From Hymenobacter citatus (lineage in GTDB: Bacteria; Bacteroidota; Bacteroidia; Cytophagales; Hymenobacteraceae), in contig NZ_JACSCY010000002.1 in assembly GCF_014333615.1 (NCBI RefSeq), forward strand, positions 372,001 through 436,000: a stretch of 64,000 bases of DNA, read 5' to 3'. The notes under the pieces were generated by a model. It saw only the letters and a list, made by a program, of their open reading frames with translations, did no database searches and was not told where the DNA came from. Positions 45,459 through 52,268 of the stretch are shown here, piece after piece. The position numbers were made by a program, and so were the translations under genes. The stretch's first letter is position 1. Each line of letters begins with the position of its first letter.

Positions 45459-45574
45459 CTCAACTTAAGACAATGTGCCTTTGTTAGCCTGCCAGATACC
45501 TAGAGTTTCAGCAGTTTTCAGTAGCTGCATTTGCTTAATGAAACTCTTTTTTTAACCCCGTAGTAAGTAGTACG

Positions 45575-45769
45575 ATGCCAACCGGAACCGTAAAATTCTT
45601 CAATGATGCCAAAGGCTTTGGCTTCATCAAAAACGACGAAAATGGTCAAGACATTTTCGTTCACATCAGTGACCTGCTGGTAAACGAAATCCGTGAAAAC
45701 GACAAGGTACAATACGAAGTAGCGCAAGGCAAAAAAGGCCCGAACGCTGTGAAAGTTCAGCTCCTCTAA
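45575..45769 (+). CDS. Cold-shock domain protein (CspA-like)
   Basis: A 64-residue nucleic-acid-binding protein, five-strand OB fold. KGFGFIKN (RNP1) and DIFVHISDL (RNP2) are complete. It binds single-stranded RNA and melts secondary structure in the cold or in stationary phase. The long leader, the terminator after it and the DEAD-box helicase gene 390 bases downstream make a typical cold-response pair. Confidence 0.95.
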   Translation: MPTGTVKFFNDAKGFGFIKNDENGQDIFVHISDLLVNEIRENDKVQYEVAQGKKGPNAVKVQLL

Positions 45770-48269: not shown

Positions 48270-48725
48270 TTACTTGGAAGCGTCGCGCAGGTCGCGGATT
48301 TCGTTGTGCGCTTGTAGGATGCCTTCGGCTTGCTTGTCGATAATCGACTTCAGCTCAGCGGGTAGGCCGTCAAACTTCTTGGCGTTTTCGTAGGCCTCTT
48401 TGGCGTGGTCCTCGCCCCGCTCGCACTCAGCCAGGATGCTATGACGGTCTTTGCCCGTTACAATGCCTTTCAGGTTGATAAAAGCGCGGTGCACGGTGCC
48501 GGCTACCGTGTTGTTGCCTTCGTTGGTGTCTACTTTCAGGTCCAGCTTGTACATCTGGTCCTCCAGCTCCGTGATATAGCTGGCGCGCTGGGCGGCGTAT
48601 TTCTTGAAGAGGTCTTTCAGATCGGCATCTTCTACGTCGGTCATTGCTTCGGCGTAGCCTTTCTGGCCTTCTTTCAGGGTAGCAACGAGGTCGTTCAGTT
48701 CGGATTGGGCTGCTTTAGCGTCCAT
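48270..48725 (-). CDS. PA2169-type four-helix-bundle protein (DUF2383)
   Basis: A 151-residue helical protein with no signal peptide. QSELNDLVATLKEGQKGYAE and SYITELEDQMYKLDLKV are the family regions; SILAECERGEDHAKEAYENA resembles the third helix with acidic residues. Families of this type are ferritin-like bundles often induced in stationary phase or stress. Function unknown; metal binding is possible from the Glu/His content but not shown. Confidence 0.85.
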   Translation of the reverse strand: MDAKAAQSELNDLVATLKEGQKGYAEAMTDVEDADLKDLFKKYAAQRASYITELEDQMYKLDLKVDTNEGNNTVAGTVHRAFINLKGIVTGKDRHSILAECERGEDHAKEAYENAKKFDGLPAELKSIIDKQAEGILQAHNEIRDLRDASK

Positions 48726-49276
48726 AATTGTGGTTCGTTTTTAGGTGGTAGGGAGAATGTATTGTGTGTCTTTGTACTAGCTATTCACGTGCAGGGTTGC
48801 GCTGAAGCCAACACAAACCGTATCCCTTTTACACTAACAGTATTCGAAACGCAGTTTATTGCTTGGCCGCAGAAGCGCTGAGCTTATGATGCTTATTGGA
48901 CAGGGCCAGAGTCAGTCTACCAAAAAGATTGGCTTTCTAGGGCTGAGTAGAGCGAAATAAGGTGAGCAAGTTGTTGGTTTCAATCGTCGGAGGGGCAGTG
49001 CGTAGCAGCAGGCTACAGGCAAAGCGGTGGTATTAGTAGAGACCATATTGACTTAGCGCTCAACACTATTTTTTTGTCTTATTAGAAAGATATACCTACA
49101 TCTGAGTGTTTCTCAGAACGAGTTGATTACTATTTCGCTACACAGCAATGGTAGACTATCTATTGAATCACTAGCTTGAATCAATTCTCAATTCTGTACT
49201 TAAGTAGCAGATTAAAAAGAACTTAAAGAGAAGGAGAAAAGTAGAAAGTGGTATTCTCATTTTTTACTCTCTCCTA
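48726..49276. other. 551-base gene-free space between divergent DUF2383 and rhodopsin genes
   Basis: No reading frame of note, no dyad of the families found elsewhere, no tRNA. The half next to the rhodopsin gene is AT-rich and contains poly-T and A-rich runs (near 49070 and 49215-49250). I found no exact TAnnTTTG box. It is the longest non-coding stretch of the window and must hold both promoters. Confidence 0.6.
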
Positions 49277-49993
49277 ATGGAAACACAAACACTACTTCAC
49301 TGGCTATATGTCGCCTCTATGATAGGCGGTACACTCCTGTTTTGGGTTTGGAGTCGCAACCCCAAAGGCGTCCCGCAATACGAATACAGCATTGCCATGA
49401 TGATTCCTATCTGGTCGGCGCTGGCGTATATGGCTATGGGCCTGGGCCAGGGCAAGACGGAAGTGGCAGGGCAAACCACGCACTATGCCCGCTACATCGA
49501 CTGGGTGGTAAGTACGCCCTTGCTGCTGCTAGCACTGGCTTTCACAGCCATGTTTTATGTACCGAAGCAAGAGCGCAAACCCAACCTGCTGTTTAGTCTG
49601 GTGGCTGCCGATGTGGTGATGATTGTGTGCGGGCTGCTGGCTGATTTATCAGAAAGCAGCACGGCGCGGCTCCTATGGTATAGCTGTGGGGTAGGGGCAT
49701 TCCTGTGCGTGCTGGTTCTTATCTGGGGTAAGCTGCGGCAGATTGCCATCAACAGTGACGCGGAGCTAGGGGGTATCTACACTAAACTGGCTGGCTTCCT
49801 GACTGTTCTGTGGTTCTGCTACCCTGCCATCTGGGCTATCGGACCTTCGGGCCTGGGCATAATCGGCCAGACTACCGAAACCATTTTGTTTGTGGTGGTG
49901 CCCTTCTTCTCGAAGGTAGGCTTTAGCATTCTTGACCTAAGTTACCTGCGCGATTTAGCTCCGCGTAAGCCCGCCTATCACCACGCGGCGTAA
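49277..49993 (+). CDS. Xenorhodopsin (Anabaena sensory rhodopsin-like), light sensor or inward proton pump
   Basis: A 238-residue seven-helix retinal protein. The retinal Schiff-base lysine is Lys213 (VVPFFSKVGFSILDL). In helix C, RYIDWVVSTPLLLLALAF gives Asp75, Ser79 and Ala86 in the places of the acceptor, Thr89 and donor of bacteriorhodopsin, so no cytoplasmic proton donor. Pro209 stands where pumps have the counter-ion Asp212, the signature of Anabaena sensory rhodopsin and xenorhodopsins; Glu36 and Asp220 match Glu36 and Asp217 of that protein, the cytoplasmic acceptor region. Numbering to residue 86 aligns without gaps to the Anabaena protein as I remember it. A blh gene follows by 32 bases. 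No soluble transducer gene is nearby. Confidence 0.92.
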   Translation: METQTLLHWLYVASMIGGTLLFWVWSRNPKGVPQYEYSIAMMIPIWSALAYMAMGLGQGKTEVAGQTTHYARYIDWVVSTPLLLLALAFTAMFYVPKQERKPNLLFSLVAADVVMIVCGLLADLSESSTARLLWYSCGVGAFLCVLVLIWGKLRQIAINSDAELGGIYTKLAGFLTVLWFCYPAIWAIGPSGLGIIGQTTETILFVVVPFFSKVGFSILDLSYLRDLAPRKPAYHHAA

Positions 49994-50025
49994 CAGAGCG
50001 TATACAGCAGGATAACGCCTGCCTT

Positions 50026-51024
50026 ATGAAAACGCCTGCTCCTATTGCCACTAGTTTCGCGCCGCACATGCTGTACTCCTACGGGGCGGTAGTAGCAGCA
50101 ATGGCGGTAGGCGTGGTAGCGCCAGCAGCAGCAGCAGTCTTCTTAGGGCCGCTGCTGCTGCTGGGGTTGGTGGTATTGGGGTTGGCCCACGGCGCCTGCG
50201 ACCAACTGGTATTTCCGGCCTACCACCCTGTGCGGGGCAAGGCGTGGTGGTTATATCTGGCGCGTTTTCTGGTGAGCTACCTGGCGCTGGCAGCAGCAGA
50301 GGTGATAGGATGGTGGCTGTGGCCAAGTGCGGCCGTCTTGTTCTTTTTCCTGCTCACTATTTGGCACTGGGGCTCTGCCGATGCGCCCACGCAACCCGGG
50401 CGCCCGGCGCTGTGGGTAGCGCATAGCATATTGCGGGGCACGCTGTTGTTTGTTATTCCGGCTTTTGCTTGGCCTGCCGCGATGCTGCACATTATCAACA
50501 GCTTACTGCGTTTTACGGGCGGCCAGTTGGTGACAGCAACCGTATTTACTACCGTGGCACAAGCAGTTGGGTGGGTTGTAGTGCTGGGCCACCTGGGCCT
50601 GTGGGTAGGGTATGCTAGACTGAACAAAGCACACCGCTGGCGCATCGATGCGCTGGAGGTGCTGCTGCTTACGGGACTATTTGTGGTCCTACCGCCGTTG
50701 CTGGCAGTGGGGATATACTTCTGCTTTTGGCACAGCTTGCAGCATGTGCTACGCCTCAACCCGCTGCTAGGCTACACGGCACAAACAGGTAGTAGGCGCG
50801 CAAAATGGGGAGACTTGCTGCGCGAAATAGGTTTTTTTGTGCGCCGCTCATTGCCTATTTTACTTATCAGTCTGGTAGCATTGGCTGTGTTGTACGTGCT
50901 ATTCGCTACCAGGCTTTCCACCCCCGACGCAGTGGTTAGCTTGGCGCTGGTGGTGGCTTCCGTGGTTACGCTACCCCACGCGTTGCTAGTGAGCCTGGTG
51001 ATGGACCGCAAAGCAGCCAGCTAG
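50026..51024 (+). CDS. blh: Brp/Blh-family beta-carotene 15,15'-dioxygenase
   Basis: A 332-residue membrane enzyme that cleaves beta-carotene into two retinals, the chromophore of the upstream rhodopsin. VVLGLAHGACDQLVFPAYHP holds the first His/Asp pair, LLTIWHWGSAD the second, and CFWHSLQHVLRLN the third, the metal-binding set of the family. Eight or so hydrophobic segments. It is 32 bases after the rhodopsin stop, certainly co-transcribed. Its stop overlaps that of the convergent flavoprotein gene by the four bases CTAG. Confidence 0.9.
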   Translation: MKTPAPIATSFAPHMLYSYGAVVAAMAVGVVAPAAAAVFLGPLLLLGLVVLGLAHGACDQLVFPAYHPVRGKAWWLYLARFLVSYLALAAAEVIGWWLWPSAAVLFFFLLTIWHWGSADAPTQPGRPALWVAHSILRGTLLFVIPAFAWPAAMLHIINSLLRFTGGQLVTATVFTTVAQAVGWVVVLGHLGLWVGYARLNKAHRWRIDALEVLLLTGLFVVLPPLLAVGIYFCFWHSLQHVLRLNPLLGYTAQTGSRRAKWGDLLREIGFFVRRSLPILLISLVALAVLYVLFATRLSTPDAVVSLALVVASVVTLPHALLVSLVMDRKAAS

Positions 51025-52268
51025 CCAGTAGGTACATCGGCCATGGCTCGGCCCGCCAGATAGCCCGTAGTCCAGGCTGCTTGAAAATTAAAGCCGCCTG
51101 TGATGCCGTCGATGTCCAGCACCTCACCGGCAAAATACAGGCCCGGTACGCGGCGGCTTTGCATGGTTTTCATGTCCACTTCGCCGAGCACCACGCCGCC
51201 GCAGGTCACAAATTCGTCCTTGTAAGTGGTTTTGCCCTGCACGGGTAGGGCTGTGCGCAGCAGGCTTTCAATCAACCGATTCTGTTGTTTGGCAGGCAAC
51301 TCGTTCCACTTCACCTCGGGGCCAATGCCGGCCTGTTCCGTGAGCGTGCGCCACAGCCGCTGGGGGAGGCCAAAAAGCGGATTGGAAGTTACTTGCTTCT
51401 TACCGTGCTGCCCCCGAAACTCCAGCAGCCACTGCCGCAACGAGTCCTCGGTGTGGGTAGGGAGCCAACTGACGAGGGCCGTGTGCCGGTGCTCCAACTC
51501 ATGCAGGCGGCGGGCACCCCAGGCCGAGAGTTTCAGCACAGCCGGCCCGCTCACGCCCCAGTGTGTCACCAAGATAGGGCCTTCATACTCCAGCTTTTCG
51601 CCGGCAATGCGCACGCGGGCGTGGGGCACGCTCACGCCCGGCAGCTCCCGGAGCGGCGACTCCGGCACGTTGAACGTGAACAGCGAAGGTACTGGCTCGG
51701 CAATGGTGTGCCCCAGGGCGCGTAGCCAGTCGTACTGAGCTGCTTTGGGGGCGCCGCCGGTAGCAATCAGCAGGCGCGCTACCTCTAGCTCCTGCGCGTG
51801 GGTGCCGGTAAGGTGCAGTCGAAAGCCACCTGTGGGTAGGGTAGTAATGCGCTCAGCGGTGGTGTGCGTGAGAATGCGCACGCCCGCTTTGTCGGCGGCC
51901 ATGAGCAGGGATTGGGCAATAGTTTCCGAAGAGTCCGTCACCGGAAACATGCGGCCGTCGGCTTCCGTTTTGAGGCGCACGCCGCGCCGCTCAAACCAGC
52001 GCACAGTGTCTACCGCCCCAAACTGCTTGAAGGGCTCCTTGAGTTGCTTGGCCCCACGGGGATAGTGCTGTATCAGCTGGGCAGGCGTGTCGGCGGCGTG
52101 CGTTACGTTGCAGCGCCCGCCCCCCGAAATACGTACCTTGCTGAGCAGCTTGCCGGTTTTTTCTATTAGATAGACCTGCAAACGTGGATTGGCCTCGGCG
52201 CAGGCAATGGCCCCAAAAAAACCAGCCGCGCCACCGCCTAAAATAGCTACTACCTCCTTGTTGTTCAC
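51021..52268 (-). CDS. HI0933/BaiN-family flavoprotein
   Basis: A 415-residue FAD-dependent protein. VVAILGGGAAGFFGAIACAE binds FAD, and GKLLSKVRISGGGRCNVTHA is the hallmark of the family, which includes YhiN and the bile-acid reductase BaiN. The C-terminal end VPGLYFAGEVLDIDGITGGF closes the flavin domain. Substrate unknown. Convergent with blh, overlapping its stop codon. Confidence 0.88.
   Translation of the reverse strand: MNNKEVVAILGGGAAGFFGAIACAEANPRLQVYLIEKTGKLLSKVRISGGGRCNVTHAADTPAQLIQHYPRGAKQLKEPFKQFGAVDTVRWFERRGVRLKTEADGRMFPVTDSSETIAQSLLMAADKAGVRILTHTTAERITTLPTGGFRLHLTGTHAQELEVARLLIATGGAPKAAQYDWLRALGHTIAEPVPSLFTFNVPESPLRELPGVSVPHARVRIAGEKLEYEGPILVTHWGVSGPAVLKLSAWGARRLHELEHRHTALVSWLPTHTEDSLRQWLLEFRGQHGKKQVTSNPLFGLPQRLWRTLTEQAGIGPEVKWNELPAKQQNRLIESLLRTALPVQGKTTYKDEFVTCGGVVLGEVDMKTMQSRRVPGLYFAGEVLDIDGITGGFNFQAAWTTGYLAGRAMADVPTG

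Follow-up and report, generated by a model that had tools for sequence, protein, structure and literature searches.

A candidate inward proton-pumping xenorhodopsin of Hymenobacter and a conserved, predicted promoter element upstream of its gene

Does the xenorhodopsin encoded in this stretch of Hymenobacter citatus DNA move protons into the cell under light, or does it act as a light sensor, and what could control its gene? The window, i.e. the whole stretch of 64,000 nucleotides that was analysed, carries the xenorhodopsin gene (XeR, 49277..49993, + strand) as an open reading frame of 238 amino acids. An earlier note on the same DNA had placed the protein in the class of xenorhodopsins and Anabaena sensory rhodopsin (ASR), had seen in it a rhodopsin of a Bacteroidota genome, which is indeed a Hymenobacter, and had regarded inward pumping as at least as likely as a sensory role.

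Identity and phylogeny of the xenorhodopsin

In a profile search, the window protein matched PF01036 with an E-value of 1.9e-57. The alignment recovered all the residues that the earlier note had named, namely E36, D75, S79, A86, P209, the retinal lysine K213 and D220, and added D112, R72 and a short C-terminal tail, which were absent from that note. An alignment error at P209/K213 had been named as a possible flaw, but these key residues sit in ungapped blocks of the alignments to the solved structures of ASR and 7zmy. A proline four residues before the retinal lysine, in place of the helix-G Asp, is the xenorhodopsin criterion given by Ugalde 2011 (PMC3198991), and the window protein has precisely this pair in P209 and K213. 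The cytoplasmic donor site of helix C is A86 and thus holds no Asp. The available text of PMC9601134 names as a xenorhodopsin trait a Trp or Phe at the position of the helix-C Arg; the window protein has the Arg there (R72). Of the 60 PDB sequences listed, ASR is the closest solved protein (274 bits), followed by the ‘xenorhodopsin’ entries 7zng/7zmy (229 bits); the next rhodopsin scores 114 bits, so that the others lie about 115 bits or more below 7zmy. The closest protein is that of Hymenobacter aerilatus (89%), and one further genome (G002) encodes the same protein as the window.

The earlier note had also proposed a phylogeny, and a tree of 60 rows, three of them outgroup rows, was calculated. 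The 57 xenorhodopsin rows, including the window protein, ASR, the inward proton pump PoXeR of Parvularcula oceani and BcXeR of Bacillus coahuilensis, split from the outgroup at 100/100, which together with P209/K213 and A86 supports the class assignment. Within them, the window protein belongs to a Hymenobacter-type clade of 14 rows (100/100). This clade, with two further proteins, is sister to the cyanobacterial clade that holds ASR (92/86, below the star), so that the placement nearer to the pumping members, as had been suggested, is not supported. PoXeR groups outside both clades with other alphaproteobacteria, BcXeR with other Bacillota, and the protein of H. roseosalivarius (L106) forms a long branch outside the window clade. 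AU tests did not reject a union of the Hymenobacter clade with the groups of PoXeR and of the Bacillota (p 0.211), nor one with H. roseosalivarius (p 0.093) nor, in test C, one of the window clade with the three outgroup rows (p 0.117), which amounts to placing the root of the xenorhodopsins on the window clade. The deep branches and the root are therefore unsure.

Transport or signalling

The comparison with PoXeR is the most informative one regarding function. PoXeR pumps protons inward, and its E35D/Q, D74E, D108E/N and D216N mutants pump less (PMC5118547). These four acids, read in the P. oceani locus (L085), align with E36, D75, D112 and D220 and are all matched in the window protein. Both proteins have the proline four residues before the lysine, and in the P. 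oceani genome other rhodopsins were found and ASRT, the partner of ASR, was not. The two are, however, 52% identical and belong to different clades, the helix-C motif is D-T-L in PoXeR and D-S-A in the window protein, and PoXeR has a tail of 32 residues; its function is measured, whereas the window protein is known from its sequence.

ASR (PDB 2m3g, 1xio) is the closest by score, and it is reported to be without ion transport in the available text of PMC5118547. It matches the window protein at E36, D75, R72, the proline and the lysine, and its D217 occupies the D220 site. It differs in a Gln at the D112 site, a D-T-S motif, a long tail and its ASRT partner. The third characterised relative, 7zmy, we take to be BcXeR, as its A38/S211 numbering fits PMC13093656, where proton-pumping activity of BcXeR is mentioned. 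BcXeR shares with the window protein the D-S-A motif and the Asp at site 112, and its Ser211 corresponds to S217; the two are 52% identical over the solved part, and BcXeR falls in the Bacillota clade. The His of NsXeR, which was compared by description, was not found in the window protein, where the site is A40, equivalent to A38 of BcXeR.

The earlier note had used Ser79 and Ala86 to argue for a pump. These sites vary (S/A, T/A or T/S in Hymenobacter, Thr/Leu in PoXeR), and the D-S-A motif was rejected as a pump marker because it varies within the genus. Judged from the aligned sequences, D112 appears to be the better residue argument, with Asp in the window protein, D108 in PoXeR and Gln (Q109) in ASR. 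Site 112 was surveyed in 80 loci out of 201 confirmed. It is Gln in 46 loci, all cyanobacterial, and Asp in the other 34 (13 Bacteroidota, 12 Bacillota, 6 Pseudomonadota, 1 Chloroflexota and 2 cyanobacteria), among them all 32 non-cyanobacterial loci. On the tree this split is a single change, and the cyanobacterial clade has L078, a cyanobacterium of the Asp type, at its base. Asp at this position is also the state of bacteriorhodopsin, so that D112 is to be taken as the ancestral state and not as a pump signature.

The tail mostly follows the same division. After the last Asp, all 33 full-length Asp-type rows have 10-34 residues, the window protein having 18 with 3 R/K after D220, whereas 38 of the 44 full-length Gln-type rows have 41 or more and the remaining six 20-27. 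The long Arg-rich C-terminal tail of the ASR-ASRT system is thus not present in the window protein. In the case of ASRT itself, the gene directly follows XeR in 5/46 Gln-type and 0/34 Asp-type loci, counted after unrelated SDR reading-frame matches had been discarded and with two Gln-type loci having less than 200 nt of DNA after XeR. The five are cyanobacteria (L066, L067, L069, L070 and L081); the available text of PMC3198991 gives Anabaena PCC 7120 as the only case of this pairing found in 2011. Genome-wide, ASRT was present in 8/48 and 2/29 of the searched XeR genomes (L045's genome left out, and G163 reached via loci of both sets), seven of them Gln-type and three Asp-type. In the three Asp-type genomes (L052, L082 and L086) the gene lies away from XeR, and their possession of it blurs the Asp/Gln split. 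We read these patterns as suggesting that inward transport would be older, that within cyanobacteria the acid would have been lost, the tail gained and the pairing with ASRT established, and that the window protein would stand on the unchanged side.

A search of the full genome for an ASRT homologue, as the earlier note had proposed, gave no PF07100 match in the window's own genome, nor in any of the 120 genomes of the genus, while the control, Thermotoga maritima, gave one. This bears directly on the main alternative, that the protein is a photochromic sensor like ASR which signals via another partner. ASR is its nearest characterised relative and the ASR clade its sister clade, which speaks for a sensor; the transducer family searched is, however, missing from the 120 genomes of the genus, the long tail is lacking, D112 is kept, and no neighbouring gene recurs in every one of the 14 Hymenobacter loci compared. 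We consider a sensor possible but clearly the less likely reading. Since all four acids that PoXeR needs and a short tail are kept, inward proton pumping appears most likely, and the view of the earlier note is in this respect supported. We hold it with moderate confidence only, because the nearest characterised relative is ASR, which differs at only one of these acids; having the other three and yet no ion transport, it also illustrates that sequence cannot prove pumping.

An ordinary outward proton pump, or a pump for another ion, would fit the Bacteroidota, whose rhodopsins are often of this kind, and the union of the window clade with the outgroup rows was not rejected, though this equals a choice of root. 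It is nevertheless very improbable: P209 replaces the second counter-ion, the donor site A86 has no acid, the xenorhodopsin rows are fully separated from the outgroup rows, and the bit scores of the other rhodopsins among the PDB sequences listed fall far below that of 7zmy.

Retinal supply and the other rhodopsins of the genus

The XeR gene is followed after 32 nt by a gene for a brp/blh beta-carotene 15,15'-dioxygenase of 332 amino acids (50026..51024, + strand; PF15461, E-value 1.3e-50; TIGR03753, 160 bits with the cut-off at 95). The operon-like pairing with a retinal-forming oxygenase that the earlier note had described is thus borne out. In the region 48700-51200, a search by consensus found 2 sites for sigma-70-type promoters and 4 for terminators, where shuffled sequence gave on average 2.0 and 2.7, and none of the sites lay between XeR and blh. 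This blh is the sole PF15461 match of the genome, and its product likely provides the xenorhodopsin with retinal. The genome also has one strong lycopene cyclase match (230 bits), which is suggestive only, because the family also matches 10/14 control genomes. On the other side of XeR lies a divergent gene for a PA2169-family four-helix-bundle protein of 151 amino acids (48270..48725, - strand; PF09537/TIGR02284).

A second rhodopsin, for which the earlier note had wanted the genome searched, was found on another contig (G000:C7:14865-15569, L002), bringing the rhodopsin matches of the genome to two. Its helix C carries the motif D-T-K and its helix G is of the pump type, and its best PDB match (88 bits) is 4hyj, presumably the Exiguobacterium sibiricum rhodopsin, an outward pump. 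As no blh lies beside this DTK gene, its retinal would come from the blh at XeR. Rubricoccus marinus, too, is described as having a xenorhodopsin together with another type of rhodopsin in its genome (PMC5609423), and we liken it to the present case by that description.

Across the genus, 49 of 120 genomes have a rhodopsin match, the lower-scoring ones being typed for 13 DTE loci and the DTK gene. XeR occurs in 15 of the 120: 14 intact copies (PF01036, 178-201 bits) and a split one in H. profundi (G055). These genomes correspond to 13 named Hymenobacter loci of the 80-locus set, the window and G002. Another rhodopsin match is present in 13 of the 15; XeR is the only one in G002 and G053. Inward pumping beside outward pumping seems wasteful, and this is a further point in favour of a sensor. 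One Hymenobacter genome (G057) has four rhodopsin and four blh matches.

The position of blh was compared side by side with that of the rhodopsin matches in each genome. It adjoins XeR in only three of the 15 (the window genome G000, G002 and H. profundi), so that the pairing was rejected as a hallmark of Hymenobacter XeR. In 11 it adjoins another rhodopsin (a fragment in G073, one with a stop in G063), and in G053 no rhodopsin. The three XeR-side blh proteins form a clade of their own at 100/100 in a tree of the window's blh and 30 loci, with H. profundi entered twice; 51 genomes of the genus have a blh match. In L034-L037 and L039-L041, XeR was seen by eye downstream of 2-oxoglutarate dehydrogenase E1/E2-like genes, unlike its context in the window. 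H. roseosalivarius has a XeR of the same class with Asp112, which is 53% identical to that of the window, and no blh was found within its locus.

The H. profundi copy (L044:6001-6713; G055:C139:32858-33525) has a frame change near residue 165 and keeps its blh and upstream element; the break may be a sequencing error or decay. That the window gene is itself a decaying or passenger gene is highly unlikely in spite of this copy and of the presence of XeR in so few genomes, since comparison with the H. aerilatus-type gene (L004) gives dN 0.062 and dS 1.13, indicating purifying selection, dN/dS over 12 relatives is 0.055-0.134, where dS approaches saturation, and both the upstream element and blh are intact.

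Upstream control and proposed mechanism

Alignment of the upstream regions showed a block shared by the window and two close relatives. The element reads TTAAAAAGAACTTAAA followed by AGTA (49212..49243, + strand) and is a predicted promoter; its core, AAC (49220-49222)-N17-AGTA (49240-49243), lies 57 nt before the ATG. AAC-N17-AGTA is found at all 15 Hymenobacter XeR genes examined (the window, L004, L033-L044 and L106), with AAC 57-71 nt before the start codon (58 nt in H. roseosalivarius), whereas it occurs in 0.8% of shuffled upstream regions. The spacing of 17 is present in 14/14 genes without L106, against at most 4 for any other spacing from 8 to 29. Among all pairs of a 3-mer and a 4-mer at spacings 10-25, this pair ranks first (15/15), and 20 shuffled sets reach 4. 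TTAAA 11-bp direct repeats were also considered as a regulator box and dropped, since AAC-N17-AGTA was the only feature retained in every row.

Of the XeR loci among L045-L112, 68 have at least 100 nt upstream and the sole carrier of the core among them is L106, i.e. 0/67 XeR loci outside Hymenobacter. The core was found neither at the 13 DTE rhodopsin genes of the genus nor within 200 nt of the lone blh of G053 or of the DTK gene. A longer form, TTAAAANNAACTTAAA, occurs without mismatch in 9/15 genomes, once each and always at XeR; copies with one mismatch elsewhere are about as many as in the backward control. The form AACTTAAA-N12-AGTA has 12 matches in 14 genomes, 10 of them at XeR, and the other match of the window's genome lies inside an open reading frame. 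The genes around XeR are not the same from lineage to lineage, so that the element is tied to XeR itself.

In the Hymenobacter loci, the core stands 45-95 nt before 13/15 distinct XeR reading frames, compared with 3/402 other reading frames of 90 amino acids or more. The bare core is common, with 6 copies on both strands of the 64-kb window, so that only its fixed place at XeR and its conservation count. One copy, at 45542-45565 (+ strand), lies 33 nt before a cold-shock gene at 45575, nearer than at XeR. The three other reading frames are one gene in close relatives (the window, G002 and H. profundi), the divergent PA2169-family neighbour, whose copy in the window (48775..48798, - strand) is 73 nt before its ATG. 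Shuffled upstream regions gave a mean of 1.0 such non-XeR matches, and 3 or more in 19/300. This is within chance, which makes co-regulation a lead and not a result; that the PA2169-family gene belongs to the same regulon as XeR is only a possibility.

Promoters of ECF sigma factors typically have AAC at -35 and CGT at -10 (PMC3426412). The AAC is present in 15/15 Hymenobacter XeR genes; CGT was not found at the -10 box, where all 15 have AGT. The spacer is 17 nt, while the 16 +/- 1 of PMC3426412 refers to ECF41 and is taken between its own, longer boxes. From its sequence, the element likely reads as a -35/-10 pair of the ECF type, i.e. as a predicted promoter, which likely gives XeR a control separate from that of the ordinary light-driven pumps of the genus. 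A conserved element of its own would suit a regulated sensor as well. In the DTE genes of L017, L018, L019 and L021 a different shared upstream pattern was seen by eye, about TTGTTTAA...GTTAAACATT, which suggests separate regulation of the ordinary pumps.

Our preferred reading is that XeR is a light-driven inward proton pump, with retinal likely from blh and likely with its own ECF-sigma-like promoter; we consider this whole probable, with reserve. Its class, the retinal lysine, D75/P209, E36/D220, D112, the blh neighbour and the upstream element were read from the sequence, and the steps of transport are proposed by analogy with PoXeR, NsXeR and BcXeR. Firstly, light would isomerise the retinal. 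Secondly, the Schiff-base proton would leave to the cytoplasmic side, towards S217 and D220 and tuned by E36; we propose that it takes this way because the extracellular counter-ion pull is weak, D75 being the single counter-ion and the second acid being replaced by proline P209. Lastly, the Schiff base would be re-protonated from the D75 side. Judging by the upstream element, expression of the gene would depend on a different sigma factor or regulator from the one that serves the DTE/blh rhodopsin operons of Hymenobacter, and in the window lineage the single blh gene would share the control of the XeR promoter.

A wider and rather speculative version, which we think improbable as a whole, is that XeR is a light-driven proton inlet under a dedicated ECF-type sigma factor, perhaps together with the PA2169-family protein. 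Outward (DTK/DTE) and inward pumps would then stand in one cell under separate promoters, light would set the proton-motive force down as well as up, and the window lineage would have its only retinal gene under the promoter of the inward pump.

Xenorhodopsins as a class, their occurrence in Hymenobacter and inward pumping by members of the class are already known, and a xenorhodopsin of H. roseosalivarius, the one Hymenobacter example met in print, is listed in Ugalde et al. 2011 (PMC3198991). The description of the system as little described in the earlier note thus holds in part: the class is well studied and Hymenobacter XeR has been in print since 2011, but that protein lies outside the window clade, and functional work on a Hymenobacter xenorhodopsin was not found in the literature searched, which was mostly without subscription papers. 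In the literature on Hymenobacter rhodopsins and xenorhodopsins, we met no description of the upstream element, of the Asp/Gln split and the distribution of tails and ASRT that goes with it, or of the local blh placement; AAC-N17-AGTA upstream of the Hymenobacter XeR genes appears to be new.

The Asp/Gln split at site 112 offers a simple mutational test of transporting against non-transporting xenorhodopsins. For PoXeR, a native culture is given as not available in the accessible text of PMC5118547. Hymenobacter could make it possible to test which role inward proton pumps play in their native cells. Its species are culturable aerobes, two of its genomes have XeR as their only rhodopsin match, and one element is common to 15 XeR genes; it is for these reasons that the physiological role of inward pumping could be approached in this genus.
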